A DNA stretch of 48,025 bases. Origin: an uncultured Bacteroidota bacterium (GTDB lineage: Bacteria > Bacteroidota > Bacteroidia > Chitinophagales > Chitinophagaceae). Within the stretch, counting starts at the first letter, position 1, and each line of letters opens with the position of its first letter. A model generated the notes under the pieces. The model did no database searches, was not told where the DNA came from, and saw only the letters and a list, made by a program, of their open reading frames with translations. Position numbers and translations under genes: made by a program. The stretch spans positions 1 to 48,025 of the forward strand of contig CAISOH010000080.1 of NCBI GenBank assembly GCA_903887005.1, given 5' to 3'. Of the stretch, positions 21,487-47,469 are shown piece after piece.

Positions 21487-22929
21487 TTAATGCGCTATTA
21501 CCACTCGTCCGGTAGTTTGTTCGCCATTAGAAGATAGCGTATATAAATAAATACCATCAGGAAAATTTAGGGTATTAAATACTGCTTTACCCTTATTAGT
21601 ATTGTTCAGCTTCTGAATTGCCACCACCTGGCCAATCATATTTGTAAGCGTTACAGATACATCAGATTCCTGTGTCAGATTGAATTCAATATTCAATTCA
21701 TCGGTAGCAGGATTGGGGATGGCATTAATAATATTTTTAGCAATTGACACATTATCAGCATTATCTGGCAGACAAAATGGAACTGAACATGTCGGACAAG
21801 TAACATACCAGTTAATATATGGATATTGCAAAGCAGATGGACTGCTGCCATTACTCTGAGCCCAGGTGGGACTAAAAACGCTATCCCAATTAGCCGGAGT
21901 ATTTGGGAGCTTTTTCCAATAACCTAAATTCTGATCTGCAGTGTATGGTTCCCAGGTGGGGCATTGGTAGGGTGCCCAGGTTGCAGTATCGGCATTTGCA
22001 TAGTAGGCTACAAGCGGTCTCCATACATTATACTTGTTATTCCCTGAACCAAGCCAGGTACCAATAAGAGTATCTCCCGGAGTTGGAGTACTTAATATGC
22101 CGGTTTTAGTAGCTGGGTCTCCGCTTATAAATGTAATGCTCATGCCACAAAAACTTCCCGCCGCTACACTAATACCTGTTGTGCCGTTAACATGTACAGT
22201 CATTGACCAGACACCATTTTTATTGGTATCAGCCCAGGTGGCGCTGTTCAGAATTATGTCTTTTTTATAGGTAATAGTATAGGAACGCTTTGATAATGTA
22301 TTGGTTACACTATCCCATATCATATCAAAAAAGGCATTACCGCTATAATGCCCTGCACTCATGGATAAGCCTGAAAAGATATCTGATGAAGAACTGCCAT
22401 TGCCAGTCACAAACACACAGCGAAGCGTATCCACTACTGATGCCTTTAATTTATTAAAGGCATACACGCCAAAAAGTGTAACAGAATCTAAATTATATGC
22501 ATTACCAGATGTACCAGCCATGACACGCATTTGACCTACATATGCCTGATCAGGCTCACCACAAAAAAACAAAGCGGCACCAGGGTCAAATACCGCAGCC
22601 TCACAAACAGTAGTAACATGCCGGTAAACCCCGGCATCTGTCAATTCTGTACCATTGGTATCATTCCATATCGTTGTGGCTGCAAGACCGGTAAATGTTC
22701 CATTTCCTCCCGGGCCTCCTCCCAATGTAATATTGTTATAATAGTTTTGAGAAGTGTCCATAGCATCGCCATAATTGTACCGGCGGGCGCCACCTGCAGT
22801 GCTCTTATGTGCGGCAGCATTTTTTTGCTGGTTGTAATTGCGTAAAGCAGTTGCATCAATTTTACGATCCTGTGCGATGGCATTCATTACTATTGCACAA
22901 CCTGCTAAGAATAAAAAGAACTTTTTCAT
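21487..22929 (-). CDS. T9SS-exported paralogue 1 (last of the array)
   Basis: A 480-residue secreted protein. It has a signal peptide (MKKFFLFLAGCAIVMNAIAQ) and a C-terminal T9SS type A sorting domain over the last 75 or so residues: AIPNPATDELNIEFNL, VSVTLTNMIGQVV and GIYLYTLSSNGEQTTGRVV. The central part, shared by all five array members, has RYNYGDAMDTSQNYYNNITL, a TIWNDTNGTEL stretch, GYWKKLPNTPANWDSVF, YPYINWYV and a C-P-T-C pair just before the sorting domain. No enzyme family is recognised; the middle is rich in beta-prone Asn/Thr/Gly. It is the closest relative of the adjacent paralogue 2 and follows it after only 25 bp, so the two are probably cotranscribed. Cargo of the Por machinery, surface-bound or released. 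Confidence 0.85.
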   Translation of the reverse strand: MKKFFLFLAGCAIVMNAIAQDRKIDATALRNYNQQKNAAAHKSTAGGARRYNYGDAMDTSQNYYNNITLGGGPGGNGTFTGLAATTIWNDTNGTELTDAGVYRHVTTVCEAAVFDPGAALFFCGEPDQAYVGQMRVMAGTSGNAYNLDSVTLFGVYAFNKLKASVVDTLRCVFVTGNGSSSSDIFSGLSMSAGHYSGNAFFDMIWDSVTNTLSKRSYTITYKKDIILNSATWADTNKNGVWSMTVHVNGTTGISVAAGSFCGMSITFISGDPATKTGILSTPTPGDTLIGTWLGSGNNKYNVWRPLVAYYANADTATWAPYQCPTWEPYTADQNLGYWKKLPNTPANWDSVFSPTWAQSNGSSPSALQYPYINWYVTCPTCSVPFCLPDNADNVSIAKNIINAIPNPATDELNIEFNLTQESDVSVTLTNMIGQVVAIQKLNNTNKGKAVFNTLNFPDGIYLYTLSSNGEQTTGRVVIAH

Positions 22930-22954
22930 TGTATAGACTTTGAAGTATTAAAAA

Positions 22955-24394
22955 TCAATGTGCAATAGCTACACGCCCCATAGTGCGTTCACCATTAGCT
23001 TCCAATGTATAAACATATACACCAGCCGGAAGAGCTGATGTATTAAATACTGCATTGCCATTCGCTATATTGTTCAACTTCTGATTAGCAACTACCTGGC
23101 CTAATATATTTGAAAGTGTTACAGAAACATCAGATGGATGTGTTAGCGAAAATGAAATATTCAACTCCTTATTTGCAGGATTGGGGATTGCATTAACACC
23201 ATTCTGAAAGGTTGTCATGTTCGCTGCATCTCCTATCGGGTTAGGGATAATACCGCATGTCGAACAACTGATGTACCAGTTAATATATGGATACTGCAAA
23301 ACAGATGGACTGCTGCCATTGTTCTGCGCCCATGTAGGGCTAAAAACGCTATCCCAATTAGCCGGAGTATTGGGAAGCTTTTTCCAATAACCTAAATTCT
23401 GATCTGCAATATATGGTTCCCATGTGGGGCATTGATATGGAGCCCAGACTGCAGTATCTGCATTTGCATAGTACGCCACAAGCGGTCTCCATACATTATA
23501 CTTGTTCTTTCCTGAGCCAAGCCAGGTATCTATAAGAGTATCTCCCGGAGTTGGAGTACTTAATATGCCGGTTCTGGTAGCCGGGTCTCCGCTTATAAAT
23601 GTAATGCTCATACCACAGAGACCTCCTGCCGATACACTAATACCTGTAGTGCCGTTTGGATGCACAGTCATTGACCAGACACCATTTTTATTGGTATCAG
23701 CCCAGGTGGCGCTGTTCAGAATTATGTCTTTTTTATAAGTTGTAATATAAGTGCGTGACGATACTGTATTAGTAACACTATCCCATATCATATCTAAAAA
23801 GGCATTACCGCTATAATGCCCGCTACCCACAGATAATCCTGAGAAAATGTCAGATGAAGCGCTGCCATTGCCTGTCACAAACACACACCGAAGCGTATCT
23901 ACTACCGATGTCTTTAATTTATTAAAATAATAAACTCCAAAAAGGGTAACAGAGTCTATATTGTATGCATCACCTGTGATACCACCTCTGACACGTATTT
24001 GACCTATATATGCCTGATCCAGATCAACATTTAAAATAGCGGCTGCCGGGTCAAATACCGCAGCCTCACAAATAGTAGTAACATGCCGGTAAACCCCGGC
24101 AGTTGTCAATTCTGTACCATTGGTATCATTCCATATGGTTGTGGCTGCAAGTCCGGTAAATGTGCCATTACCTGCCGGCCCGTTTCCCAATGTAATATTG
24201 TTATAATAGTTTTGAGAAGTGTCCATAGCATACCCATAATTGTACCTGCGGGCGCCACCTGTAGTGCTCTTATGTGCGGCAGCATTTTTTTGCTGGTTGT
24301 AATTGCGTAATGCGGCAGCATCAATTTTACGATCCTGTGCAATAGCATTCAATACTATTGCACAACCTGCCAAGAATAAAAAGAACTTTTTCAT
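22955..24394 (-). CDS. T9SS-exported paralogue 2
   Basis: A 479-residue protein nearly identical to paralogue 1 through most of its length, including the 5' flank GTATAGACTTT just before the start codon. It differs mainly in the pre-sorting linker (CSTCGIIPNPIGDAANMTTF) and in the sorting domain (NAIPNPANKELNISFSLTH). The signal peptide, the NYYNNITLGNGPAGNGTFTG motif and the GYWKKLPNTPANWDSVF block are conserved. There is no terminator between it and paralogue 1. The high similarity and shared flank point to a recent tandem duplication, with faster divergence at the C terminus. Function unknown. Confidence 0.85.
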   Translation of the reverse strand: MKKFFLFLAGCAIVLNAIAQDRKIDAAALRNYNQQKNAAAHKSTTGGARRYNYGYAMDTSQNYYNNITLGNGPAGNGTFTGLAATTIWNDTNGTELTTAGVYRHVTTICEAAVFDPAAAILNVDLDQAYIGQIRVRGGITGDAYNIDSVTLFGVYYFNKLKTSVVDTLRCVFVTGNGSASSDIFSGLSVGSGHYSGNAFLDMIWDSVTNTVSSRTYITTYKKDIILNSATWADTNKNGVWSMTVHPNGTTGISVSAGGLCGMSITFISGDPATRTGILSTPTPGDTLIDTWLGSGKNKYNVWRPLVAYYANADTAVWAPYQCPTWEPYIADQNLGYWKKLPNTPANWDSVFSPTWAQNNGSSPSVLQYPYINWYISCSTCGIIPNPIGDAANMTTFQNGVNAIPNPANKELNISFSLTHPSDVSVTLSNILGQVVANQKLNNIANGNAVFNTSALPAGVYVYTLEANGERTMGRVAIAH

Positions 24395-24524
24395 TGTATA
24401 GACTTTAGGTTAGGAATACTATACATAAAGCTATAAATAAATATCTGAATTAATCCAAATTATTATTCAAATATTTTTTTATGATGCTTTGCTACGCATT
24501 GTTTGTAGGGATGACTGCATTCAT

Positions 24525-24557
24525 AGATGTCCCACACTTTGAAAGTGTGGGACATCT
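24525..24557. repeat. Large perfect dyad, copy A
   Basis: AGATGTCCCACACTTT followed by one G and the exact complement AAAGTGTGGGACATCT: a 16-bp perfect stem. Identical copies are at 26325-26357 and 28134-28166, and related ones at 42834-42868 and 47746-47776. It has no T run, so it is a hairpin repeat and not a classic terminator. Confidence 0.9.
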
Positions 24558-24670
24558 CCAGCGCCCTACCAATCAATATCTAATCAGATATGGAAAAATA
24601 TGCAAGGACCAATATTCAGCACAAATTGACGCTTTTGCTGAGAATAAATACCAGTGAGTTCCTAAAAGCA

Positions 24671-24696
24671 ACAGGGTAACCAATTCGCTACCCTGT
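24671..24696 (-). terminator. Terminator of paralogue 3
   Basis: ACAGGGTA pairs with TACCCTGT around a ten-base loop. On the minus strand it lies 20 bp past the stop of paralogue 3 (24717). It is a weaker version of the 11-bp stem at 26472-26499. Confidence 0.6.
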
Positions 24697-24716
24697 ATTA
24701 AAAGGAAACTATAAGA

Positions 24717-26192
24717 TTAATGTGCTATAATCACACATCCTGTATTGCGATCTCCATCAGCAGATAGCGTATAAATATAAACGCCACCTGCAAGAACGGA
24801 TGTATTAAATACCGCCTTACCATTAACCATATTATCCAACTTCTGATTAGCAACTACCTGGCCTAAAATATTTGTAAGTGTTACAGAAACATCTGACGCC
24901 TGTGACAGAGAAAAGGTAACATTCAGTTCATCTGCAACTGGATTAGGGTATGCAGCTACCTTATTAAATGCACTTACATTATTAACAGCCAGTGCATGAA
25001 GAGGAGACAAAACAAGCCCGCATGTAGGGCAGGAAGAAACATACCAGCTAATGTATGGATATTGGTAAGCACAAGCGCCACCTCCGGGAAGACCAAATGA
25101 CCATAACGGAAGAAATGAGTTATAAGAAAAACCTGTATCATTTGGCAGCGACTTCCAGAAACCACAATTCGCATCATTATTGTATGAATCATAGGTTGGG
25201 CATGGGTATGGTGCAAATGCAGGGGTAAGAACGCCAATCGAATCTTTGGCATAATAGGCAACAAGCGGGCACCAGACATTATACTTGCTGTTTCCCCAGC
25301 CATGCCATTTACCTACTAAAGTATCTCCGGGAGTGGGTGTGCTTAGAATGCCAGTATGTGTTGCCGGGTCACCGCTAATGTAAGTAATGGTGATAGCGTT
25401 TTTAAATCCTGCAGAATCCTTCATTCCTAAGGCGCCGTTAACAGCTATCGTTTTATGCCATATACCGCCTGGTAAAGTATCATTCCTTGTGGTATTGTCT
25501 AAAAGAATATCCATGTAGTGAGGAACCGTTGCGGGGTATAAATTAGCCAGATTTTTCCCTGTCCCTGTGTTTTGTACGGCATCATAAAAAAAACCAGAAT
25601 TTATACAGACTCCATAATGTCCTTTCCTGGTTGAAGTGTCCGGGAAAAAATTATCGTAAACGTGCTTTCCATCACCTGTCATAAAAACCATTCGCAACGT
25701 ATCTACTTCCGTGCTCTTTGTACTATTATACAGATATACCCCAAATAGTTCCACAGAATCAACTTCATATGCGTCCGTATCTGAAATATACATCTGACCG
25801 ACATATGCCTGGTCAGGGTCTCCATTAAGAATGGCTGCAGCCGGGTCAAACATATCTCCCTGGCATACATAAACATCATGACAATATATATGCCCGCTAT
25901 CATAGAAAATACCATTGGTATCATTCCAGATGGTTATTGCCCCAAGGCCCATATGTGTACCATTTCCTCCAGGGCCTTCTCCTAAAGATATATTGTGGTA
26001 ATAATTACCAGAAGTATCTATAGCATCTCCATAATTATACCAGCGTGGGGGAACTGAGGTAGTCTTTCGGGCCGCTGCGGCATTTTTTTGCTTCAGGTAA
26101 TTATGCAATACCGAAGCATCAATTTTAAAATCCTGTGCGCATATATTCAGCGAGATAGCGCATATTGCTAAAAATAAAAAGAACTGCTTCAT
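24717..26192 (-). CDS. T9SS-exported paralogue 3
   Basis: A 491-residue member of the same family, clearly more distant from paralogues 1 and 2. The signal peptide is MKQFFLFLAICAISLNICAQ. Family blocks are kept in altered form: WYNYGDAIDTSGNYYHNISL, TIWNDTNGIFYDSG, FWKSLPNDTGFSYNSF, YPYISWYV and the C-P-T-C pair. A region of about residues 185-245 has extra sequence (GKNLANLYPATVPHYMDILL) shared with paralogue 5 and not with 1, 2 and 4. The last 75 residues are a T9SS type A sorting domain (YPNPVADELNVTFSLSQ to the terminal histidine). No catalytic motif was recognised. Confidence 0.85.
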   Translation of the reverse strand: MKQFFLFLAICAISLNICAQDFKIDASVLHNYLKQKNAAAARKTTSVPPRWYNYGDAIDTSGNYYHNISLGEGPGGNGTHMGLGAITIWNDTNGIFYDSGHIYCHDVYVCQGDMFDPAAAILNGDPDQAYVGQMYISDTDAYEVDSVELFGVYLYNSTKSTEVDTLRMVFMTGDGKHVYDNFFPDTSTRKGHYGVCINSGFFYDAVQNTGTGKNLANLYPATVPHYMDILLDNTTRNDTLPGGIWHKTIAVNGALGMKDSAGFKNAITITYISGDPATHTGILSTPTPGDTLVGKWHGWGNSKYNVWCPLVAYYAKDSIGVLTPAFAPYPCPTYDSYNNDANCGFWKSLPNDTGFSYNSFLPLWSFGLPGGGACAYQYPYISWYVSSCPTCGLVLSPLHALAVNNVSAFNKVAAYPNPVADELNVTFSLSQASDVSVTLTNILGQVVANQKLDNMVNGKAVFNTSVLAGGVYIYTLSADGDRNTGCVIIAH

Positions 26193-26324
26193 TATATAGC
26201 TTTTTTAAGGTTGGGAATACTATATAAAGTTATAAATAAATATTTGGATCAATCAAAAATATTATTAAAATAATTTTTTTATGCTTTGCTACGCTTTGAA
26301 ATTTGTCTGGATGACTGCATTCAT

Positions 26325-26357
26325 AGATGTCCCACACTTTGAAAGTGTGGGACATCT
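26325..26357. repeat. Large perfect dyad, copy B
   Basis: Identical in all 33 positions to copy A at 24525-24557 and lying at the same place within its intergenic block. Confidence 0.9.
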
Positions 26358-26471
26358 CCAGCGCCCTACCAATCAATATCTAATCAGATATGGGAAAATA
26401 TGCAAGGAGTAATATTCAGCACATATTGACACTTTTGCTGAGATTAATTACCAGTGACTTCCAAAAAACAA

Positions 26472-26499
26472 AACAGGGTAACGAAACCGTTACCCTGTT
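26472..26499 (-). terminator. Terminator of paralogue 4
   Basis: AACAGGGTAAC and GTTACCCTGTT form a perfect 11-bp stem over a six-base loop. On the minus strand it follows the gene stop at 26521 by 21 bp and is itself followed by TTGTTTTTTGG, the expected T-rich tract. Confidence 0.8.
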
Positions 26500-26520
26500 A
26501 AAAAAAGAAAACTATTTAAA

Positions 26521-28008
26521 TTAATGTGCAATAGTCACACGGCCAGTCGCATGTTCGCCATTAGCTTCTAAAGAATAAACATAAACGCCTGATGGAAGAG
26601 CAGCGGTATTAAACACTGCTTTACCGGTAGCAATATTACTTAGCTTTTGAGTACCAACAACCTGACCGATCATATTAGTAAGCGTTACAGATACATCAGA
26701 TGCCTGGGTTAATGAGAAAATGATATTCAACTCATCATTTGCAGGATTAGGAACTGCATTAATATTATTTACTGTAGTTACATTATTAAGGCCCAGATAA
26801 GTAGAAGGAAGCGTTCCGCAGGAAGCACAAACAACATGCCAGCTAATATATGGATATTGCCGGGAAGATGCACCACCGCCGCTATTCCATGCCCAGGTAG
26901 GAATATATACATCGTCCCAATTCGCTGGTGTATTAGGAAGCCTTTTCCAGTACCCTAAATTATTATCAGCCTGATTTGCCTCCCATGAAGGGCATTGATA
27001 TGGGGCCCAGACTGCATTACCTGCATTAGCATAATAAGCGACAATTGGACGCCAGACATTATACCTGTTCATGCCTGAACCAAGCCAGGTACCTAATAAT
27101 GTGTCACCTGGAGTAGGTGTAGCCAGTTTCCCGGCGCCTGTAGTTGCAGCAATGTCTCCGCTTATGAATGTGATGGACATACCACAAATAGAACCTGCCG
27201 GTACAGAAATACCTGTAGCGCCATTTGTTGGAATAGTACCGGACCATATGCCATTTTTATTTGTATCGGCCCATCTTGCACTGTTCAAAATAACATCAAA
27301 TTTATAAGTAGTAGTAAAGGTACGGGTTGATGCCGTATTGGTTACGCTATCCCAAATCATATCAAAAAACGATACTCCGGGATAATGTCCTCCGGTACCC
27401 ATCTTAAACCCTGAAAAAATATCAGATGAACCGCTGCCATCGCCAACCACAAATACACAACGCAGTGTATCAACGACCGTAGTTTTGGTTTTATTAAAAG
27501 AATATACTCCAAATAGTGCAACTGAATCCCATGTATATGCATTAGAATTAGTGAGTTCATATTGACCGATATATGCACCATCCATCTCTCTGTTAAAAAT
27601 CTGAGCTTTGGGATCAAATACTGCCGCCTCACTCACATCTGTAATATGCTGGTAAACGCCTCCGGTGTACAATGCGGTGCCATTAGTATCTTTCCAGATT
27701 GTGGCTGTACCAAGGCCGAAAAATGTACCATTTCCAGAAGGTCCTCCACCCAAAGTAATATTATTGTAATAATTTTGGGATGTATCTATAGCGGATCCGT
27801 AATTGTACCATCGGGGGCTACCGGCTGTAGTCTTATTTGCAGATTTTCCAAATCTTTGCTGTAAATCATTACGCAAAGCCACAGCATCAATTTTACGATC
27901 CTGTATTGGATTAATAGTATTAACCATGCTACCATGGCGGAGCTCCTGTGCGCTCATATTCATTGCTATTGAGCCAGCAGCTAAGAAGAAAAATAATTTT
28001 TTCATATT
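26521..28008 (-). CDS. T9SS-exported paralogue 4
   Basis: The likely start is the internal ATG opening MKKLFFFLAAGSIAMNMSAQ, a proper signal peptide; the frame is open 18 codons further upstream (to 28062) but that part lies in the copied intergenic block. The protein is about 495 residues. Family features are the WYNYGSAIDTSQNYYNNITL motif, TIWKDTNGTALYTGGVY, the GYWKRLPNTPANWDDVY block, a C-A-S-C pair in place of C-P-T-C, and the sorting domain NAVPNPANDELNIIFSL. It is closer to paralogues 1 and 2 than to 3 and 5. Exported by T9SS; function unknown. Confidence 0.85.
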   Translation of the reverse strand, partial: NMKKLFFFLAAGSIAMNMSAQELRHGSMVNTINPIQDRKIDAVALRNDLQQRFGKSANKTTAGSPRWYNYGSAIDTSQNYYNNITLGGGPSGNGTFFGLGTATIWKDTNGTALYTGGVYQHITDVSEAAVFDPKAQIFNREMDGAYIGQYELTNSNAYTWDSVALFGVYSFNKTKTTVVDTLRCVFVVGDGSGSSDIFSGFKMGTGGHYPGVSFFDMIWDSVTNTASTRTFTTTYKFDVILNSARWADTNKNGIWSGTIPTNGATGISVPAGSICGMSITFISGDIAATTGAGKLATPTPGDTLLGTWLGSGMNRYNVWRPIVAYYANAGNAVWAPYQCPSWEANQADNNLGYWKRLPNTPANWDDVYIPTWAWNSGGGASSRQYPYISWHVVCASCGTLPSTYLGLNNVTTVNNINAVPNPANDELNIIFSLTQASDVSVTLTNMIGQVVGTQKLSNIATGKAVFNTAALPSGVYVYSLEANGEHATGRVTIAH

Positions 28009-28133
28009 ACATCTTTTAGTTTTGGAATACAACATAAAGTTATAAAAAAATATTGGGATCATTTCAAATTATTTTTCAAATATTTTTTATTGTATTTTGC
28101 TAAGCATTGATATTTGTCTGGATGTGCATTCAT

Positions 28134-28166
28134 AGATGTCCCACACTTTGAAAGTGTGGGACATCT
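28134..28166. repeat. Large perfect dyad, copy C
   Basis: Identical 33-bp dyad to copies A and B, though the flanks here have already diverged (CTGGATGTGCATTC against CTGGATGACTGCATTC in copy B). Confidence 0.9.
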
Positions 28167-28283
28167 CCCGCTCCCCGCCAATCAATATCTAATCAGATAT
28201 GGAAAAGGAAGGCAAGGAGTAATATTCAACACAAATTGACGCTTTTGCTGAGAATAAATACCAGTGACTTCCTAAAAACAAAA

Positions 28284-28307
28284 CAGGGTAACGAAACCGT
28301 TACCCTG
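28284..28307 (-). terminator. Terminator of paralogue 5
   Basis: CAGGGTAAC and GTTACCCTG form a 9-bp perfect stem; on the minus strand it follows the stop at 28332 and is followed by TTTTGTTTTTAGG. Confidence 0.75.
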
Positions 28308-28331
28308 AATATTAAAAAGAAAACTATTAAA

Positions 28332-29879
28332 TTAGTGAGCTACAACTATGCGGCCTGAAGTACGGCCACCGTTAGCTTCTAATGTATAAATATATATACC
28401 ATTAGCAAGTACACTGGTATTGAATACCGCTTTACCTTCAGCTGTATTGTTCACCTTCTGGGTAGCAACAACCTGGCCCATGATATTGGCAAGAGATACA
28501 AATACATCAGAAACCTCAGTAAGAGAGAAGGTAACATTCACCTCATCTGTTGCAGGGTTAGGTACTGCATTAATACTATTTACTGTTGGCAAAGTATTTG
28601 TTCCAAGATATGCAGAAGTAATTGTTGCACAGGTCGGACATGTAATATACCATGTCATATAGGGGAACTGTAAAGGATAAGCTCCGCCACCAACGAGTGA
28701 ATATCCCCATGCGCCTGGGTAATACAGGTTATCCCAGCCATTGGAATAATTAGGCAAAGTTTTCCAGTATCCAAGATTTTGATCTGCAGGATATGGTTCA
28801 TAAGTAGGGCATTGATAAGGGGCATATGCCGCTGTAGAGCCACCGGTTGCATAATAGCTTGAAAGAGGACGCCAAACATTATATTTGTTCATACCGGGAG
28901 TGCCGGCAGAAGAACTAACCAATGTATCACCAGGGGTTGGGCTAGCTAAAGCACCAACTTTTGTAACCGGATCACCGCTTTTGAATGTAATAGTCATTCC
29001 TGCAAAAGAACCTGCAGGAACAGGCATTCCGGATGCTCCTAAAGCACTACGTGGTATGGTCTTAGTCCAGATACCGTTTGACATAGTATCACCCCATGCC
29101 GGAGTGAGGCCTGAATTGTTTAAAATAATGTCATAATGCGGATAAGTGGCTGTAGAAGGATACAATTGAGCTGGAACTGGCCCAGACCCTACATTATGTA
29201 CACTATCATATCTCAGGTCAAGGAAGGTAACCGGGCCATAGTGTGGTGCACCGCTACCGCCAAAACCAGCGCCACCTATATTAGACCCGGTGGAACCATC
29301 GCCTGTCATGAATACAAGGCGGAGCGTATCTACTACAGTAGTCTTTGTTTTATTATAAAGATAAACACCGTAAATCGTAACAGAATCTACCGTATAAGCA
29401 TCACCGGTGGTACCGGCTTTTACACGTATCTGGCCAATATATGCCTGATCAGGGTCCACATTAAAGATTGCTGCAGCTGGGTCAAAAATAGAACCTTGCG
29501 ATACAGTAATAATATGCCGGTAATCGCCGCCGGAATACAATACAGTACCATTTGTATCATTCCATATGGTTTCTTCCATCAATGCATGCAAGCCGGTAAA
29601 AGAGCCATTGCCCCCTGGACCACCTCCCAAAGTGACATTATTGTAATAATTGGCTGAAGTGTCAATAGCTACTGCATGATTGTATGCACGTGACCCGCCT
29701 ACCGTTGTCTTTGCTGCACCATGGCTTTTATTTAATATGCCTTGTGGCATCAATAAAGAACCATCAATTTTGCGATACTGATTTTCGGCATTCTTGGGCG
29801 CCATCATTACCTGGCGCTCCTGGGCAATCACATTCATTGTGATAGAGCCAGCAGCTAAAAGTAAAAATAATTTTTTCAT
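28332..29879 (-). CDS. T9SS-exported paralogue 5 (first of the array)
   Basis: A 515-residue protein, the longest and most diverged of the five. Signal peptide MKKLFLLLAAGSITMNVIAQ. The N-terminal mature region is longer (QVMMAPKNAENQYRKIDGSL). Shared blocks are NYYNNVTLGGGPGGNGSFTG, ETIWNDTNGTVLYSGG, the GYWKTLPNYSNGWDNLY block, FPYMTWYI and C-P-T-C. Its own insert around residues 205-255 (GAGFGGSGAPHYGPVTFLDL then PVPAQLYPSTATYPHYDIIL) partly matches paralogue 3. The C terminus is a T9SS type A sorting domain (NAVPNPATDEVNVTFSL). As the first gene on the minus strand it may be the ancestral copy from which the others were duplicated, but order alone does not prove that. Confidence 0.85.
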   Translation of the reverse strand: MKKLFLLLAAGSITMNVIAQERQVMMAPKNAENQYRKIDGSLLMPQGILNKSHGAAKTTVGGSRAYNHAVAIDTSANYYNNVTLGGGPGGNGSFTGLHALMEETIWNDTNGTVLYSGGDYRHIITVSQGSIFDPAAAIFNVDPDQAYIGQIRVKAGTTGDAYTVDSVTIYGVYLYNKTKTTVVDTLRLVFMTGDGSTGSNIGGAGFGGSGAPHYGPVTFLDLRYDSVHNVGSGPVPAQLYPSTATYPHYDIILNNSGLTPAWGDTMSNGIWTKTIPRSALGASGMPVPAGSFAGMTITFKSGDPVTKVGALASPTPGDTLVSSSAGTPGMNKYNVWRPLSSYYATGGSTAAYAPYQCPTYEPYPADQNLGYWKTLPNYSNGWDNLYYPGAWGYSLVGGGAYPLQFPYMTWYITCPTCATITSAYLGTNTLPTVNSINAVPNPATDEVNVTFSLTEVSDVFVSLANIMGQVVATQKVNNTAEGKAVFNTSVLANGIYIYTLEANGGRTSGRIVVAH

Positions 29880-30240: not shown

Positions 30241-30660
30241 CTAAAGCCCTGAATATGAATAAGTAGGCAGGTAAACCTTCACTGTATCTTCTGTACTGAT
30301 CTTGCAGGGAAGTCCGCCCTTAACGTATGGAGGCACATATAGTGTATGATAACCCCTGCCAAATATATAATAATCGCCCTTCTTTAAGCCAGGGAAAACA
30401 GCAACAGGTATGGTATCCGTTAATACGCACACAACTGAATCATCATAAACGCCATTTGATGGCATATCCAGCGAATTGTACTTAATATAAATGGTACAGG
30501 TATCTACATATAGTCCATGATGTTCAGGGATAACGGTAATAGTCGCATTACCACCCTTACCGCCGCCTGTTGGAACAGGGGCCGATGGCTTCTTACAACT
30601 TTCTGCAGTTGTGAGCCATGCAGCAAAAAAAAAGATTATGAATTTTATTCCGGCTTTCAT
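30241..30660 (-). CDS. Small lipoprotein with one beta-domain, unknown function
   Basis: A 139-residue protein with signal sequence MKAGIKFIIFFFAAWLTTA and lipobox ESC followed by KK, so a probable lipoprotein. A Gly-rich linker (PTGGGKGG) leads to a compact domain with PEHHGLYVDTCTIYIKYNSL, SNGVYDDSVVCVL and GLKKGDYYIFGRGYH, which has the look of an Ig-like or transthyretin-like sandwich. Two cysteines in it (DTC and VVC) could pair. It is divergently placed against the copper-type operon that begins at 30732, so the two may share a control region. No family name can be given. Confidence 0.6.
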   Translation of the reverse strand: MKAGIKFIIFFFAAWLTTAESCKKPSAPVPTGGGKGGNATITVIPEHHGLYVDTCTIYIKYNSLDMPSNGVYDDSVVCVLTDTIPVAVFPGLKKGDYYIFGRGYHTLYVPPYVKGGLPCKISTEDTVKVYLPTYSYSGL

Positions 30661-30731: not shown

Positions 30732-31166
30732 ATGACAAAAAATATACAGAAAAGGCATCTGCACTCCTTACCTTTGTTTTATTATTCACAACATTTGAAA
30801 AAGCTAATTGCCTTATTTGCCTTATCGGGCATCCTGTTGCAAACCTTTAACCAGGTTGTAATAGTAGCTGCATATTATGCCAATAAAGACTACATAGCTA
30901 AAAACCTATGCGAGAACAGAGATAAACCAAAGATGCATTGCGATGGTAAATGCTGCCTGAAAAAGAAGCTGGCAAAAGAAAGTAAAGAACAGGCGCCCTC
31001 TCCCCGCAACCAGAAAAGCGAACAGGTAATAAACCTTTTCTGCGCCGAAACCAAATTTGAAATTAACCAATTTGTTCCTTCATCATTACCCAATTGTTAT
31101 TTCAGTTATAATGATCTGAAAACTTTTTCCTTCCACCATTCTGTCTTCCATCCTCCAACTGTTTAA
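30732..31166 (+). CDS. Small membrane-anchored protein with CDGKCC motif
   Basis: Up to 144 residues from ATG 30732. The start is uncertain: a perfect TAnnTTTG box (TACCTTTG, 30769-30776) lies inside the first codons, and the hydrophobic segment begins right after a TTG at 30795, so a 123-residue form (KKLIALFALSGILLQTFNQ as membrane anchor) is more likely. After the anchor come YYANKDYIAKNLCENRDKP and the cysteine cluster MHCDGKCCLKKKL, then a charged stretch and a His/Phe-rich tail. Similar small proteins with an H-C-x-G-K-C motif occur in Bacteroidota next to metal or copper genes (from memory). Leading the operon with the Met-rich barrel and MbnP-like protein suggests copper binding or sensing at the membrane. 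Confidence 0.65.
   Translation: MTKNIQKRHLHSLPLFYYSQHLKKLIALFALSGILLQTFNQVVIVAAYYANKDYIAKNLCENRDKPKMHCDGKCCLKKKLAKESKEQAPSPRNQKSEQVINLFCAETKFEINQFVPSSLPNCYFSYNDLKTFSFHHSVFHPPTV
30769..30776 (+). promoter_or_regulatory. Candidate -7 promoter element of the copper-type operon
   Basis: TACCTTTG, a perfect TAnnTTTG, 19 bp before the TTG at 30795. A transcript from here would exclude the ATG at 30732 and favour the TTG start. No TTG at the -33 distance. Confidence 0.4.
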
Positions 31167-31243
31167 TGTTTTTGTTTTAGAAATTCTATACCCGTTTGTT
31201 AAGGTGGGTTGTTATTATTTCATTTAACTTATAACATTAAATA

Positions 31244-32344
31244 ATGAAACCATTAAGCAAACTATTCCTGCTTATCTGTTGCAGCGTACCATTATATAGT
31301 TATGGACAGAATACAGATAAAGATCAGCAGACAGTAATAAATACCGGCAACAAAACCTGTGGTTCCGGCTGTTGCTGTGGCATGGAAACTCAAACTCCAT
31401 CCGGCATCATGACAGACCACATTCATAATAAAGGGGAATGGATGGCAACCTGCACCTATATGGATACCAGGATGAAAGGAAACCATATAGGAGCAACGCC
31501 TGCAAATGACAATATGGTGTACCGGGAAAATTATATGATGGCACCTGAAACTATGAATATGCAAATGCATATGGCAATGCTGATGTATGGGCTTACCAAC
31601 AAGCTTACGCTCATGGGTATGGCCGGTTTTACTAGTGATAATATGATGATGAATATGGCAACGAATATGCCCGGCATGAACATGACTCCCGGAAATACAA
31701 CCATGCAGTCTTTGTCATCAGGTTTTACAGATACTAAAATATACGGATTGTACAACCTCTCTGGTAAAGAATCACAACGCATCATCGCAAGTATGGGTGC
31801 AAGTATCCCCACAGGTACTTTTAAGGCAACAGGTGTTACAATGCTTGGTGAAAACCAGCGCCTTCCGTATGATATGCAACCGGGTACGGGCTCATTCAGT
31901 ATAATACCCGGCATTACTTATGTACATCAATACAACCGGTATTCTTTGGGGGTTGATGCCGGCGCTGATATAAAACTATCCGGTAACACGCTGGGATATA
32001 AACAAGGGAATGTTTATCAGGCCTCTGCATGGGCTAGCCGCAGATTGCTTCCTTTTGTAAGCGGTTCTATACGGGCGGAAGAAATTGTATCGGATAAGAT
32101 CACAGGATCTGACCCGGCAATAGCGATCCCTGTTTATGAAACCAATGACCCCACTGCCAATACCGCTAATTATGGCGGAAAAATGGTTAACATTTATGCA
32201 GGCCCTAATTTTCATTTTGATCAACCTGTCTTAAAAAATTTCCAGCTTCATTGTGAATATGGCGTTCCGGTATATCAGAATCTTAATGGCACACAAATGT
32301 CGGAGCATTCAAATTTAGTGGCAGGGTTGATGTATAAATTTTAA
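31244..32344 (+). CDS. Met-rich outer-membrane beta-barrel ('transporter'-like)
   Basis: A 366-residue protein with signal peptide (KLFLLICCSVPLYSYGQ). The mature N terminus carries a cysteine cluster (TCGSGCCCGME) and then an exceptional methionine-rich stretch: about residues 90-150 include METMNMQMHMAMLMYG-type and MMMNMATNMPGMNM runs. Methionine clusters of this kind bind Cu(I) in exported proteins. The rest alternates in the manner of an outer-membrane barrel (KIYGLYNL, GSFSIIPGITYVHQY) and ends in an aromatic residue (LVAGLMYKF), the usual barrel signature; it resembles the Phenol_MetA_deg-type channels annotated as transporters. The gene is followed by the MbnP-like gene on the same strand. 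Copper specificity is inferred from composition and neighbours. Confidence 0.72.
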   Translation: MKPLSKLFLLICCSVPLYSYGQNTDKDQQTVINTGNKTCGSGCCCGMETQTPSGIMTDHIHNKGEWMATCTYMDTRMKGNHIGATPANDNMVYRENYMMAPETMNMQMHMAMLMYGLTNKLTLMGMAGFTSDNMMMNMATNMPGMNMTPGNTTMQSLSSGFTDTKIYGLYNLSGKESQRIIASMGASIPTGTFKATGVTMLGENQRLPYDMQPGTGSFSIIPGITYVHQYNRYSLGVDAGADIKLSGNTLGYKQGNVYQASAWASRRLLPFVSGSIRAEEIVSDKITGSDPAIAIPVYETNDPTANTANYGGKMVNIYAGPNFHFDQPVLKNFQLHCEYGVPVYQNLNGTQMSEHSNLVAGLMYKF

Positions 32345-32366
32345 CCGGACATAACACACCAAATCA

Positions 32367-32393
32367 CGTAGAGACGCAATGCTTGCGTCTCTG
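32367..32393. repeat. Dispersed dyad GAGACGCAATGCTTGCGTCTC, copy 2
   Basis: CGTAGAGACGCAATG and its complement TTGCGTCTCTG in the gap between the barrel and MbnP-like genes. The same element is at 1253-1283. In this position it could also attenuate transcription within the operon. Confidence 0.75.
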
Positions 32394-32436
32394 CCAAAAC
32401 AAACAAAAATTCAAAATCAATTTTATAAAGATAATT

Positions 32437-33246
32437 ATGAAAAATAAGACAACAGTTTTTCGCATAGCATCATTTTGTGCCCTTTTACTCACAGCTATCT
32501 GCTTTATGAGTATTACTTCCTGTAAAAAAAAGACTACAGTTGAAGCTACCGGCACCTTCTTCATACACCTGCACACAAATATTGACACCAACGAGGTAGC
32601 AGATAAGACTGCATTATACAGAGATTCCGGAGGCAGGCATTTCGGGCTGTCAGTTGCGCAATTCTATCTTTCCAATATCATGATCCACAATGTCAATGGC
32701 AACATGTACACTTTTACCGGTGTTCACGTTCTTAAATGCATTGATAGTGAAGCTTATCTTATTGGGAATGCGCCTGTTGGCACTTATGATTATGTTATGT
32801 TTGATGTCGGATTAGATCAGGCGACTAACGCACTTACTCCCGCAAGTTTTACCAACAACGGAAACACCCCAAATTCTACGATGTGGTATGGCAATACCTC
32901 ACAAGGGTATATGTACATGAAATTACAGGGTTTTGCAGATACCACCATGGCTCAGAACGGAACCAACCTTGTTCATTTTTCATATGGTATCGGCAAGATG
33001 TTCGCCGTGGGGGGCGGAGACAGAAATCTGAAATCCGTTAGCATGCCTGTGCGCACAGCCTCTTATGCACCTTATATTTTAACTGTCGGTGGCACTCAAT
33101 ATATCCATATGATCTGCGATTATGGAAAACTGCTCTCGACAGTGAATTTCAACACACAGGATAGCACTGATACTTACAGTCTAAACCCTTCAATATCCAA
33201 CATAATTGCTAATAATATCCCGAACATGTTCAGTTATGAGGAATAA
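32437..33246 (+). CDS. MbnP-like copper-binding lipoprotein
   Basis: A 269-residue protein from ATG 32437; the frame is open 18 codons upstream but the signal peptide begins here (MKNKTTVFRIASFCALLLTA) and ends in lipobox SITSC followed by KKK. The mature part matches the MbnP family: FFIHLHTNIDTNEV, FGLSVAQFYLSNIMIHNVNG, the NSTMWYGNTSQGYMYMKLQGF block with the conserved tryptophan, and the closing strands. In characterised MbnP a copper ion is held by a histidine and a tryptophan-derived kynurenine, made by the partner diheme protein MbnH. No MbnH-type gene is in the window. In the FSYGIGK segment, where relatives as I recall have a Y-H-x-G motif, the histidine position is glycine. The stop overlaps the next start by 11 bp. 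Confidence 0.85.
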   Translation: MKNKTTVFRIASFCALLLTAICFMSITSCKKKTTVEATGTFFIHLHTNIDTNEVADKTALYRDSGGRHFGLSVAQFYLSNIMIHNVNGNMYTFTGVHVLKCIDSEAYLIGNAPVGTYDYVMFDVGLDQATNALTPASFTNNGNTPNSTMWYGNTSQGYMYMKLQGFADTTMAQNGTNLVHFSYGIGKMFAVGGGDRNLKSVSMPVRTASYAPYILTVGGTQYIHMICDYGKLLSTVNFNTQDSTDTYSLNPSISNIIANNIPNMFSYEE

Positions 33247-33619
33247 ACCCTTTATTTCATCTGCTATTACCATAACACTCGTCAGTGTTATGGTAATGGT
33301 TTCCTGTACGCATAAAAGCGCAGTTTTGCCTGATGTAAGTTTCAGTAAAGACATTATCCCCATATTCCAGGCCAGTTGCGCTTTGAATGGAGGTTGTCAT
33401 TCAGGTGCAACTAATAATGGTCATAACATGGATTTTGACAGCAATGCTGCTTACAATACCATTATCACAAAGCAACTGGTAATTTATAGTAATCCCACAG
33501 CAAGTTTATTGTATGTCCAAATCAGTTCCGGCATCATGCCTAAATCACCCTACCCTATCCTGAGCGCTGACAAAATTAACTTAGTACTTAACTGGATAAA
33601 ACAGGGCGCAAAGCCATAA
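33236..33619 (+). CDS. Cytochrome c-like lipoprotein with a C-x5-C-H motif
   Basis: A 127-residue protein from ATG 33236, overlapping the end of the MbnP-like gene (ATGAGGAATAA), which fits translational coupling. The N terminus is a signal sequence with lipobox MVSC. The mature domain reads VSFSKDIIPIFQASCALNGG then CHSGATNNGHNMDF, the layout of small c-type cytochromes (F-x(n)-C...C-H, later a methionine). The two cysteines are separated by five residues and not the usual two, so it is C-x5-C-H. A distal methionine in SGIMPKSPYPIL is the likely sixth ligand. Relatives with extra spacing (C-x4-C-H) are common in Bacteroidota. It could be the electron-transfer partner for copper or for the MbnP-like protein. 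Confidence 0.75.
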   Translation: MRNKPFISSAITITLVSVMVMVSCTHKSAVLPDVSFSKDIIPIFQASCALNGGCHSGATNNGHNMDFDSNAAYNTIITKQLVIYSNPTASLLYVQISSGIMPKSPYPILSADKINLVLNWIKQGAKP

Positions 33620-36188: not shown

Positions 36189-36557
36189 ATGAGTAGCAAC
36201 ATGCGAATCCCGAAAGTATGCGAATACTGTAAAAACGAGTTTACAGCGCAGAAACTAGCAACAAAGTATTGCTCTTTAAAATGCGCCCAGCGAAACTATA
36301 AGAAAACAAAGCGGGATGAGAAGATAAATGCAGCACATAAAGAATACACGGAAATTCGGCAAAATAACAAGCCAAAACTGGCAGATACTATTATCTATCC
36401 AAAATCTTATTTAACAGTAAAAGACACCTGTAAAATGCTGAATGCTTCCGATTCTACAATACGCAAGTATATCAAAGACGGAAAAATAAAAACAATTAGG
36501 ATTGGCAAGAAGCATATAATCAAAAGAGAAGATATTGAAAAGATGTTCCAGATATAA
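36189..36557 (+). CDS. Zinc-ribbon plus excisionase-type HTH protein
   Basis: A 122-residue protein with two parts. Residues 1-45 hold a zinc finger, CEYC...YCSLKC, with the cysteines spaced as in small treble-clef fingers. After a lysine-rich linker the second part, YLTVKDTCKMLNASDSTIRK followed by YIKDGKIKTIRIGKKHIIKR, is a winged HTH of the MerR/excisionase (HTH_17) type. In Bacteroidota such proteins commonly accompany tyrosine recombinases on integrative elements. No recombinase gene is present here. It lies 250 bp after mnmE and is preceded by 10-bp direct repeats that may be its binding sites. Confidence 0.8.
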   Translation: MSSNMRIPKVCEYCKNEFTAQKLATKYCSLKCAQRNYKKTKRDEKINAAHKEYTEIRQNNKPKLADTIIYPKSYLTVKDTCKMLNASDSTIRKYIKDGKIKTIRIGKKHIIKREDIEKMFQI

Positions 36558-37344: not shown

Positions 37345-37614
37345 ATGCATATGAAACAAATCATTTTAATCCTCTCAGAAATTCAATCTTTACTAGAGTT
37401 AAACAAAGAGGTATTAACTCTCCAACAGTACGCAAAATATGCTGGTATTTCAATTCAAACAGCATATAAACAAACCTCACAGAGAAGGTTACCATTTTAT
37501 CGCCAAGGCAAACATCTTTATTTAAAAAGAGAAGATGTTATTGCCTTCCTTTTAAGCCATCCAGTTAAATCAAATTCAGATATTGAAAAGGATGCGATGA
37601 AACATTTGCAATAG
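37345..37614 (+). CDS. Small excisionase-type HTH protein
   Basis: An 89-residue protein; a start at the second Met (37351) is equally possible. LTLQQYAKYAGISIQTAYKQ followed by RRLPFYRQGKHLYLKREDVI is an HTH_17 DNA-binding domain: helix-turn-helix plus the R-Q-G-K-x-L/x wing. The first 20 residues are a helix, possibly for dimerisation. Proteins of this kind act as excisionases or control genes on integrative elements. It is the last element-type gene before housekeeping genes resume. Confidence 0.75.
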   Translation: MHMKQIILILSEIQSLLELNKEVLTLQQYAKYAGISIQTAYKQTSQRRLPFYRQGKHLYLKREDVIAFLLSHPVKSNSDIEKDAMKHLQ

Positions 37615-43560: not shown

Positions 43561-46500
43561 TTAATTTTTCAACCACTTCAGCACTTCCGAAGTCGTGTTG
43601 TTGGTCAGTTTGATGATGTACATTCCGGGCGCAAGGGAAGCGGCCTTTATTTGTATTGTGCTGCTGCCTTTACTCCATTTATCACTCATTATTTCCCTGC
43701 CTGTAGGGTCATACATGGTTACCGCAAGCGCATCGTTAACCGGGTGCTGGGCATACAGGTTTACTATGCTGTTGTCCTGTCCCTGCTGCGATAACCAATA
43801 CTTATTATTGTCAACAATGTTTACCGGCATAATTCCATTGGTAGAAATTACAATTGAAGCCGAAGTGCCAAGGCATCCGTTCGAGTCAACGGTAATCGTG
43901 TAGGTACCAACACCCGGAGTTGGGAACCATGTAAAAGGATTGGTAACAGCTCCCGTTATTGGAGTTCCTGCAAGGTTCCATTGAAGTGTTGAATATGCGC
44001 CGCTGCAGAAAAGCTGGGATCCTGACTGGACGATAACAGGGTGAGGCGTGGGGTTTACTGTAACATTATAAGAGAAAGCATTGGTCTTAATACCTGAGTA
44101 AATTGTCAGTGTTACTACGAATGTACCTGCTCCGGAGTTAAAACAAATGGTAGGCGTGTCAACATATACATTGGAGATGAACGGCCCCGCAGGGGTTACC
44201 GACCATTTAATGCTATCCGTACTGCCTATGCTGGTATTGGAAAAGTGTATGCAGCTATCCTGGCATATCGGTAAGGAGGAGTAAAATGAGGTATCAAATG
44301 ATGCAAGCAATACGGTCGTTACTTTACGTATTACATTGTTGTCCCTGTCAGCAATATAGAAACTGCCTGCATCATCAGTGCTCAGACCTATAGGGTTTCT
44401 CATTGTTGCTTTTATAGCCGCACCGCCATCACCGCTATAACCGAAAGTACCATTACCGGCTACGGTTGAGATTTTTCCTGCAATATCAATTCTGCGGATA
44501 CGCTGGTTGGTGAAATCAGCTATAAGAATACTATGAGTAGTATCCATTATCACGGCTGCAGGTTGTGATAACTTGGCTGAAGTCGCCGGACCACCATCAC
44601 CGCTGAAACCGTTCACACCCGTACCTGCAATGGTTGCTATATTACCTGAAACTTTATCTACCCTGCGGACAACATTATTGAGGAAATCCGCAATAAATAC
44701 ATTTTGCCCGCCATCAATATACACGCCTTTAGGGTCACTGAGCGTAGCGCTTAATGCTGCTCCGCCATCCCCTGTATAACCCGCAGTACCAGTACCCGCA
44801 AAAGCGTTAATAATACCAGTTGTCAAATTCACTACCCGCACCTTGTTATTATTCCCGTCAGCAATATACAAATTACCGAAAAGGTCACAGGCAATGCCCT
44901 GGGGATAATATAATTGGGCGCCAAGAGCCGAACCGCCATCGCCGCCAGGGCCTACAGAGCCGTTGCCTGCAACAGTGGTAACGATATTGGTAGCCTTGGT
45001 TACTTTACGGATACGGTTATTTCCCATATCCGAGATATACAGATTACCAGCCGCATCGAGCGCAACGCCATTCGGGTTATCCAGCATGGTTTTGGTAGCA
45101 ACCGATCCATCTGCTGTAAAGCCCTGGAAACCCGTACCTGCAAAAATACTGATATTGCCTGTCGGGTCTATTTTACGCACTACATGATTATCCCGGTCTG
45201 CAAGGAAAACGTTCCCGGTCTTATCGGTTGTAACGGAATAAGGCTGGTACAGCATAGTAGCTGTGGCCGGGCCGCCGCTGGCTAAGAAGCCGGCTACTCC
45301 AGTTCCTGCTATGGTAGTAATGATTTTTGTAATAGCATTAACCTTGCGCACCACGCTATTCAGCTGGTCGGTAATATACAGGTCGCCGGTAAACTGGTCC
45401 ACCTCAAGGCCGGATATCTGGTGCAGCTTTGCAGCATTTGCCAGTCCGCCATCTCCGGTATAACCCACTGCTCCGGTTCCTGCATAGGTGGATATTTTTC
45501 CTGATGCAATGTCCACCGCACGCACTACATTATTCAGCGCATCGCCAACATAAAGCGTCGGGCCTGCATTGTAATAAGCAACACTTACCGGAGCACTGAA
45601 CGTAGCGAGGGCAGCCGCGGCCCCGTCTCCGGTATAACCCCATACACCTGTTCCGGCAAAAGTGCTCATCACGCCTTTCCCGTCCACCTTGCGCACCACA
45701 TTATTGGCCCTGTCGGCAATATACATATCACCGGTTGCAGCAGTAGTAACTCCCGTAGGATTTTTCAGTTCCAGGTAAGTAGCAAGGCCACCATAGCCGG
45801 AAGTTCCATTCCCACCAATGGTATAAATATCGCCTATAACACGGCCTGAGGGAGGTGCTGCATTATATACTATGCGGATACGCTCATTTTTAGTATCTGC
45901 GATCAGCAGATTGCCGGTATTATCTAACGTAATGCCTTCAGCAAACGCGATTTGCGAGGTAATGGCAGGATATCCGTCACCGCCATAAAAAGCGGTACCG
46001 TTTCCGGTATAGTTATTTATTATTCCTCCCGGAGTTACCATATCAACATGGTTATTAGCCTGGTCGGCAATATATACATTACCGGTAGCATCCACCACCA
46101 CGCCTGTAGGATTATTCAGAAAGGTAGTTGTACCTGATATTCCATAAGTGGTCGTACCGGCACTCCCGGCAACAATATCACCTGCAATACCAGTGATAAA
46201 TCCTGTTAATACTGTTATTTTAGCAACATTATTAGCGCCGGAATTTGCTATATAGACATTGCCTGTTGCATCTTGCGCAACTCCTGAAGGACTATTTAAA
46301 AGAGAAGCGTTTGCCAGGGCGCCGCTTACAAAATTCCCTGCCGCACCGGTACCGGCAACTGTCGTAACAGCGCCACCTGTAATTTTACGGATACGGTTAT
46401 TGCCTTTATCAGCTACATAAACAATAGTACCCGCACTATTTACACTAACGCCGGTAGGGTTAGTAAATTTTGCCGCTGCGGCCGCACCATCATTAAAACC

Positions 46501-47469
46501 GGCAGTGCCTGGGACAGCACCAGCAAATGTAGAAATAAAGCCTGTAGAAAATGTTACTTTACGAATAACATTATTACCTGCATCTGCTATATAAAGTGCA
46601 CCGGTACCTGAAGGATCGTACGCAATGCCGGAAGGAGTAGTTAATTTGGCAAGGGTAGCTGCTGCTCCGTCACCTGAATAACCAGCCAATGTATTACCTG
46701 CGAATGTGGAAATAATGCCTGAGGTATTGATCTTACGGATTACATTATTCGCCCTGTCGGCAATATAAATATTACCTGCAAGGTCAACAGCCACGCCGGA
46801 AGGATCATTAAACTCCGCAGCAGTAGCCGGGCCGCCATCCACGGTTAAACCGGGCGTTGCAAAAAAGCCTGCAACCGTCCAGATCTTACCAAACGGATCA
46901 ACCATGCGGATGGAATTATTATCCCTGTCAGCAATATAAAGATTGCTGGTGACGCCATCAAATCTTAAACCATAGGGATGGTCAACCATGGCAAGCAGCG
47001 CAGGCCCGCCATCACCGAGAGGGCCTGTTGTGGTACCTGCATTATTGACTATCGTGGTAATAATACCGGAAGAATTTACCTTACGTACACGATGGTTTCC
47101 GCAATCGGCAATATACAGATTGGAGCCGTCATGGGCAACGCCGGTTGGGCCATTGAGCATACAGCCAACAGCGGGCAGCCCGTCGCCGAGGCCGGCAGTG
47201 CCGCCGCCGGCAACTATCCAGTTAATGCCGGCAGGGTCAACCATGTGAATCAGGTTATTGACAGAGTCGGCAATATAAAGGTTGCCGGTGCTTGGGTCTA
47301 AACAAAGACCTGTGGGCATGTTGAATTGCGTCGTGGTGGCAGGGCCTCCCCAAACGAGTGAACCGCCAACTCCATTGCCTGCGATAGTGGTAATAAGCTG
47401 TGCCTGAACACCCGCAGAAAACAGTAAAGTAAATACCGCAGCGAGTAATTTGTAGCAATTGATCTTCAT
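43561..47469 (-). CDS. Giant NHL-repeat protein with PKD-like and T9SS sorting domains
   Basis: A 1302-residue secreted protein. The signal peptide is KLLAAVFTLLFSAGVQAQ. From about residue 25 to 1090 there are 18 NHL-type repeats, each with a core like NPTGVAxDxxGNLYIAD followed by NNxIRKV and a Gly-rich GDGGPAT segment. NHL repeats form beta-propellers, so this would make three six-bladed rings or a similar stack. Then follows a PKD/Ig-like region (about 1095-1225: CQDSCIHFSNTSIGSTDSI and VTVNPTPHPVIVQSG) and a C-terminal T9SS type A sorting domain (about 1225-1302: YAQHPVNDALAVTMYDPTGR to LKWLKN). It is likely a cell-surface binding protein. A partner is not apparent. Confidence 0.92.
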   Translation of the reverse strand: MKINCYKLLAAVFTLLFSAGVQAQLITTIAGNGVGGSLVWGGPATTTQFNMPTGLCLDPSTGNLYIADSVNNLIHMVDPAGINWIVAGGGTAGLGDGLPAVGCMLNGPTGVAHDGSNLYIADCGNHRVRKVNSSGIITTIVNNAGTTTGPLGDGGPALLAMVDHPYGLRFDGVTSNLYIADRDNNSIRMVDPFGKIWTVAGFFATPGLTVDGGPATAAEFNDPSGVAVDLAGNIYIADRANNVIRKINTSGIISTFAGNTLAGYSGDGAAATLAKLTTPSGIAYDPSGTGALYIADAGNNVIRKVTFSTGFISTFAGAVPGTAGFNDGAAAAAKFTNPTGVSVNSAGTIVYVADKGNNRIRKITGGAVTTVAGTGAAGNFVSGALANASLLNSPSGVAQDATGNVYIANSGANNVAKITVLTGFITGIAGDIVAGSAGTTTYGISGTTTFLNNPTGVVVDATGNVYIADQANNHVDMVTPGGIINNYTGNGTAFYGGDGYPAITSQIAFAEGITLDNTGNLLIADTKNERIRIVYNAAPPSGRVIGDIYTIGGNGTSGYGGLATYLELKNPTGVTTAATGDMYIADRANNVVRKVDGKGVMSTFAGTGVWGYTGDGAAAALATFSAPVSVAYYNAGPTLYVGDALNNVVRAVDIASGKISTYAGTGAVGYTGDGGLANAAKLHQISGLEVDQFTGDLYITDQLNSVVRKVNAITKIITTIAGTGVAGFLASGGPATATMLYQPYSVTTDKTGNVFLADRDNHVVRKIDPTGNISIFAGTGFQGFTADGSVATKTMLDNPNGVALDAAGNLYISDMGNNRIRKVTKATNIVTTVAGNGSVGPGGDGGSALGAQLYYPQGIACDLFGNLYIADGNNNKVRVVNLTTGIINAFAGTGTAGYTGDGGAALSATLSDPKGVYIDGGQNVFIADFLNNVVRRVDKVSGNIATIAGTGVNGFSGDGGPATSAKLSQPAAVIMDTTHSILIADFTNQRIRRIDIAGKISTVAGNGTFGYSGDGGAAIKATMRNPIGLSTDDAGSFYIADRDNNVIRKVTTVLLASFDTSFYSSLPICQDSCIHFSNTSIGSTDSIKWSVTPAGPFISNVYVDTPTICFNSGAGTFVVTLTIYSGIKTNAFSYNVTVNPTPHPVIVQSGSQLFCSGAYSTLQWNLAGTPITGAVTNPFTWFPTPGVGTYTITVDSNGCLGTSASIVISTNGIMPVNIVDNNKYWLSQQGQDNSIVNLYAQHPVNDALAVTMYDPTGREIMSDKWSKGSSTIQIKAASLAPGMYIIKLTNNTTSEVLKWLKN

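Follow-up and report, generated by a model that had tools for sequence, protein, structure and literature searches.

A group of four plus-strand genes in the 48,025 nucleotide (nt) contig CAISOH010000080.1 (hereafter the window), from an uncultured, freshwater-type member of the Bacteroidota, is read here as a copper-acquisition operon that would be turned on at copper shortage, and in which a probable copper-sensing leader peptide precedes a rewired MbnP module. We place the probability of this reading at roughly 0.55. A preliminary description of the window had singled out the same four genes for their metal-type motifs, and all four open reading frames (ORFs) and their motifs are present. 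That description left copper uptake and copper storage side by side; acquisition fits better, and storage less well. The genes of the operon are listed below.

30795..31166, plus strand: gene 1, a small CDGKCC protein with a hydrophobic N-terminus, a CxGxC motif and FHPP at the C terminus; proposed to be a leader peptide that senses copper and works like CruR/CutF
31244..32344, plus strand: gene 2, a predicted outer-membrane barrel rich in methionine (Met), with a marginal match to PF13557 and an N-terminal CGSGCCC cluster
32437..33246, plus strand: gene 3, a lipoprotein of the MbnP family without the WxW motif and without the histidine (His) of the HxG motif; an HxH and a later His are kept
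33236..33619, plus strand: gene 4, a small lipoprotein with a CX5CH motif; probable mono-haem c-type cytochrome

The operon was originally placed at 30732..33619. Its genes are real, but the ATG at 30732 gives way to the TTG at 30795, which is probably the start of gene 1 because the relatives begin there and the family profile covers 30795-31163. Genes 1 and 2 are separated by 77 nt and genes 2 and 3 by 92 nt. Gene 3 begins at ATG 32437, and gene 4 at ATG 33236, inside the end of gene 3, with an overlap of 11 nt.

Related genomes were scanned for the same arrangement, and 33 of the 119 have matches to the barrel at E≤0.001. The MbnP gene adjoins the barrel in all 18 genomes that have a barrel match at E<1e-100, the window's own included. 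The complete set of four genes, in the same order, is found in 16 of 18 close loci, and the remaining two are broken by contig ends (the contig of L070 starts within gene 2, and that of L072 ends in gene 3). The same gene order is also found, at lower similarity, in more distant loci. The gene order is beyond chance, and the suggestion that the four families co-occur is upheld. Excluded from the MbnP and gene-1 counts given below are 18 loci that duplicate or are near-identical to regions already included (e.g., L084, which is like L080). The 39 named loci from a search with the variant profile are assigned to Chitinophagaceae, Chitinophagales, Sphingobacteriales, Flavobacteriales, Bacteroidetes/Bacteroidota or uncultured bacteria, and nearly all are metagenome-assembled genomes.

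The related operon at locus L066 adjoins genes for UbiA, COX3, COX4 and SCO1 (Pfam), and BLAST grouping places homologues of them in three or four more loci. An HMA-domain protein is encoded downstream in L066, with homologues in nine other loci. In addition, L066:10169-11158 encodes a 330-amino acid (aa) protein that resembles an outer-membrane barrel; it has no Pfam match, is grouped with relatives in 12 loci and is absent from the window.

Gene 3 had been called MbnP-like, and both sequence and predicted structure agree with this. It matches PF20243 at 67.1 bits (cut-off 27), and its AlphaFold2 model (mean predicted local distance difference test score, pLDDT, 85.3) supports, as a prediction, an MbnP fold. 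In a Foldseek search with the model the six matches at E≤0.001 all fall on one entry, 7l6g, the MbnP of Methylosinus trichosporium, one for each of its six chains, with template modelling scores (TM-scores) of 0.51-0.54 by query length. Searches of the PDB with single MbnP sequences or with the variant profile were unproductive; the WxW profile did find 7l6g. Gene 3 has no NCBIfam match at E≤1, and so none to TIGR04052 (MbnP_like_WxW). Manesis is said to have shown in 2021 that MbnH converts the first tryptophan (Trp) of WxW in M. trichosporium MbnP to kynurenine, and that this is needed for copper binding. In gene 3, WxW is absent in three alignments, and three, including a profile-profile alignment, place phenylalanine (Phe) or tyrosine (Tyr) on the position of the first Trp (W1). 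A Trp is found one column off W1 in at least 20 of 22 variant proteins (90% or more).

Important is the association between the loss of these residues and the identity of the next gene. A total of 110 MbnPs were aligned and the next same-strand gene was recorded for each, with labels from profiles built on these same loci; MbnP matches below 100 bits (relatives set) or below 60 bits (phylum set) were not counted. MbnH is next for 57 of the 110, and these proteins have the first Trp (57/57), WxW (56/57) and the HxG His (57/57). A member of the gene-4 family is next for 35, and the first Trp, the Trp of the WxW column and the HxG His are each found in 0/35. The HxH motif with the later His is present in 35/35 of the MbnPs followed by gene 4, versus 3/57 of those followed by MbnH. 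The phylum set, fetched separately as 40 regions, mostly from the upper part of the 72 places that the variant profile had listed, holds 42 MbnPs in 40 loci. All 42 are followed by MbnH, and they display W1 in 42, WxW in 41 and the His in 42. Three loci (L082, L147 and L157) hold both modules, and in these each MbnP is followed by its own haem-protein partner.

In a tree of the MbnPs all 48 Trp-less proteins are on one side of a single branch, with a support of 100/100. None of the 48 has MbnH directly next, and one of the 48 retains a His at the HxG column. Some members of the clade are without any Trp near W1 (MYF, MNY). Two Trp-less MbnPs, at L164:6121-6927 and L165:5779-6546, have MHF, possibly an intermediate form of the WxW motif, in place of the MHW of the MbnH-paired proteins. 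The MbnP variant could serve as a natural experiment on the part of kynurenine in copper binding: fold and operon are kept, and motif and enzyme gene are lost together.

CX5CH is an unusual haem motif. Among 32 members of the gene-4 family it is found in 18, with CX4CH in 13 and CX2CH in one, and among the papers listed in a literature search on CX5CH none has that term. Gene 4 has no Pfam match. A search of the PDB with the family profile gave ten sequences at E≤1, all of them cytochromes or haem enzymes; these matches are weak, the best with an E of 6e-4, and the structure model of gene 4 is also weak (pLDDT 78.1). On sequence grounds, gene 4 is a probable c-type cytochrome with a single haem. 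Seven gene-4 matches, gene 4 itself counted, are present in the window's genome. The idea that the CX5CH protein replaces MbnH holds as to position, but gene 4 probably does not perform the MbnH reaction, because the swap of partners coincides with the disappearance of both WxW and the conserved His.

MbnH was at first described as absent. This is correct for the operon but not for the genome, where the sole MbnH-family match adjoins its own WVW MbnP on contig C38. At that place (L003:5280-8031) the second MbnP and MbnH lie behind a Spy-like gene and a sigma-factor-like gene (the latter recognised by eye), and neither gene 1 nor the barrel is adjacent. With the MbnP_like_WxW model this second MbnP scores 39.8 bits, short of the cut-off of 140. 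An MbnH gene elsewhere in the genome had been named as a finding that would count against the proposed copper system, and in a sense such genes are common, with an MbnH-family match at E≤1e-20 in 110 of the 119 genomes. However, the match in the window's genome has its own WxW MbnP, and genome G028 (listed as 98% complete), which carries the operon, has just one weak MbnH-family match (E 3e-38). The distant genomic MbnH was considered as a partner for the window's MbnP and rejected, because it adjoins its own WxW MbnP.

The barrel encoded by gene 2 matches PF13557 (Phenol_MetA_deg) at 24.2 bits against a cut-off of 22, a marginal match, and has 22 Met within one 90-residue stretch. With a Met-rich barrel defined as one having 15 or more Met per 90 residues, such barrels are found in 26 of 33 cases at loci with gene 4, in 0 of 22 at loci with MbnH only, and in 6 of 11 at loci with neither.

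Gene 1 had been taken for a working metal protein, and here the comparison of relatives points elsewhere. Matches below 65 bits were not counted. All 75 copies have CxGxC and a C-terminal proline pair (Pro-Pro), which is at most six residues from the stop in 72. The gap between the two motifs is 64-71 residues (median 66) in the 75 copies, and 63-71 in 21/21 further copies. Mean pairwise identity is 54% in the cysteine (Cys) region, drops to 15% in the aligned linker, and is 63% in the six residues ending in Pro-Pro. A Pro-Pro in the last ten residues is found in 30/30 gene-1 copies versus 1/458 of the other gene models from the same loci. The hydrophobic N-terminus is visible in the alignment. 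In 71 of the 75 copies there is no same-strand upstream gene from five tested families; the nearest upstream gene model, recorded for 30 copies, is divergent in 22, on the same strand at >60 nt in five, and on the same strand at ≤60 nt in three. We regard gene 1 as a probable leader peptide that senses copper in the manner of CruR or CutF. A plain metal carrier was rejected, because the near-constant spacing and the terminal Pro-Pro fit a leader better. No convincing Pfam or NCBIfam match was obtained among 20 members of the family scanned.

Of 296 Bacteroidota genomes sampled, 115 contain a member of the gene-1 family (E≤1e-6). From the genome-wide list 20 further regions were chosen, mostly not near a known MbnP, and a gene-1 ORF was found in 19 of them (none in L256). 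In these 19 loci (L237-L255, with 21 copies) a TonB-dependent receptor is part of the operon in 11, accompanied by PepSY_TM in three, a BNR-repeat protein in four and YtkA in one. The other eight comprise two with MbnP, MbnH and barrel, one with a barrel, and five with something else or nothing recognised. Upstream of gene 1, an AAATTTA-type 8-mer is found in 10 of 21 stretches (L036, L065-L069, L075-L077, L095 and others), with at most 5 in shuffled sequences, and it is perhaps a promoter. None was seen in the window's own upstream stretch.

Several known systems show partial likeness to the operon. The CruR operon of Bordetella pertussis (cruR-bfrG/crtA-bp2921/crpH; DUF2946) also has a small first gene with a Cys motif, a C-terminal Pro-Pro and near-constant spacing, followed by copper genes, and relatives of gene 1 also head TonB-receptor and PepSY_TM operons. 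CruR has 45 residues between CXXC and RAPP, and its translation arrest is released by copper, which turns the operon off; the cruR-bfrG-bp2921 operon is copper-repressed (PMC9426467), and the arrest is reported in vitro (PMC12992588). Operons headed by CruR relatives are described as including MbnPH-like genes. The Bordetella pair of TonB receptor and PepSY_TM is tied to copper import and haem-copper oxidases (PMC12914433; PMC13038864). The window's operon differs from that of CruR in having CxGxC and FHPP, not CXXC and RAPP, with 64-71 residues between them in place of 45, in its lack of a DUF2946 match and in its downstream genes. CutF of Rhodobacter capsulatus (cutFOG) likewise has a CxxxC motif and a C-terminal Pro-Pro; however, copper raises CutF-controlled expression by way of an RNA stem-loop, and no significant stem-loop is found here. 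Lists of CutF-like proteins include many from Bacteroidota (PMC9973294), so the gene-1 family may already be among them.

With the MbnP/MbnH pair (TIGR04052 with TIGR04039) the window's operon shares the MbnP family and fold and a haem-protein gene directly behind, but it is without WxW and the HxG His, and a probable mono-haem cytochrome takes the place of the di-haem MbnH. CorA/CorB and MopE of methanotrophs are similar in that a copper protein is made at copper shortage and a haem-protein partner gene is present. In CorA, a related kind of protein, copper is held by two His and a water, with kynurenine nearby (PMC3912023), whereas the window protein has no WxW. A literature search, with subscription papers mostly outside its coverage, found no paper on this gene arrangement.

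On the copper-acquisition reading, gene 1 would be exported during its synthesis, and the ribosome would be slowed or stalled at its FHPP end. Copper bound at CxGxC, 66 residues before Pro-Pro, would alter this stall, and in this way the genes behind gene 1 would be turned on when copper is scarce. The Met-rich outer-membrane barrel may gather copper or admit it, and the MbnP-fold lipoprotein would receive it in the periplasm. With neither the conserved His nor the WxW from which kynurenine is formed, gene 3 would have to bind copper elsewhere, perhaps at the HxH and later His that are conserved. The small cytochrome may move electrons to or from this copper in the place of MbnH, and the acquired copper would probably be destined for respiratory oxidases.

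A number of observations weigh against this reading. The profile that selected the leader copies already contains both motifs. DUF2946 (PF11162) matches 0/20 gene-1 members at E≤10 and nothing in the window's own genome; the control was matched in 1/14. Gene 1 ends in HPP, not RAPP, and the RNA fold of the 77-nt gap between genes 1 and 2 is no better than that of shuffled sequences (z -0.98), with no significant stem-loop. Moreover CutF responds to copper oppositely to CruR (PMC9973294), and thus the leader motif alone cannot set the sign of control. As the 48 Trp-less MbnPs form one clade, the link between motif and partner represents one event, and the counts are not independent. Gene 4 is directly next in only 35 of these 48; of the other 13, eight are followed by none of the families labelled, two by a WxW MbnP and one by a barrel, and two are at contig ends. 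An MbnH-like gene is found behind gene 4 in L074, the variant Trp is placed on W1 by one alignment, and the gene-4 model finds no solved fold at E≤0.001 in a Foldseek search of the PDB.

The opposite sign of control is the basis of a copper-defence explanation, which we consider unlikely. With a CutF-like leader, copper would turn the operon on, the barrel and the MbnP variant would bind or expel the excess, and the cytochrome would take electrons from Cu(I). In its favour, stretches rich in Met and Cys are suited to binding Cu(I); leaders of the CutF type increase expression when copper is present, and efflux genes lie behind many CutF-like genes (PMC9973294). However, the operon is without an efflux pump, P-type ATPase or oxidase gene, and the gene-1 family heads operons of TonB receptor and PepSY_TM, the make-up of copper import. 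The characterised MbnP-like protein CorA is copper-repressed (PMC3912023), and a stem-loop of the CutF sort was not found in the gap between genes 1 and 2.

Less probable again is that the MbnP-fold module has decayed or been repurposed for another metal or ligand (e.g., nickel, cobalt or haem), with a leader sensing that metal, or serves no metal. The copper ligands of MbnP are altered in the variant, and some CutF-like proteins adjoin nickel or cobalt genes (PMC9973294); however, the nickel/cobalt types of CutF-like protein are described as having His-only motifs where gene 1 has Cys, the barrel is Met-rich, and related operons have oxidase and SCO1 genes as neighbours. Least probable, by a narrow difference, is that the window MbnP is still kynurenine-modified at its remaining Trp by an MbnH encoded elsewhere, gene 4 being an extra electron carrier only: the Trp beside W1, the alignment that puts it on W1 and the MbnH-family genes of the 110 genomes would agree with this, but the Phe or Tyr on W1 in three alignments, the MHF of the in-between proteins, the loss of the conserved His, the clade members with no Trp and the WxW partner of the genome's own MbnH do not.

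A wider proposal may be considered, which we hold tentatively, as somewhat short of an even chance. Bacteroidota would have a widespread copper-sensing arrest peptide of their own (CxGxC, 64-71 residues, FHPP) that heads copper-acquisition operons, and in one lineage these would carry a kynurenine-free MbnP, the di-haem enzyme having been traded for a one-haem CX5CH cytochrome and a new copper site having arisen on the MbnP fold. Bacterial copper uptake is poorly understood. A survey of RAPP/RGPP leaders lists Bacteroidota among the groups in which copper genes are not preceded by such leaders (PMC12992588), and the gene-1 family could fill this gap.

Other features of the window, including the neighbour of the operon, are as follows.

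30241..30660, minus strand: a divergent lipoprotein with a GGGKGG stretch and no match in Pfam or NCBIfam; conserved next to the operon, with 21 copies in 20 loci including the window
36189-36557 and 37345-37614, plus strand: two small proteins like excisionase-type DNA-binding proteins (by eye)
21487-29879, minus strand: a row of proteins, each about 480-515 aa long; all three tested carry a type IX secretion tail (Pfam)
43561-47469, minus strand: a 1302-aa NHL-repeat protein with a type IX secretion tail

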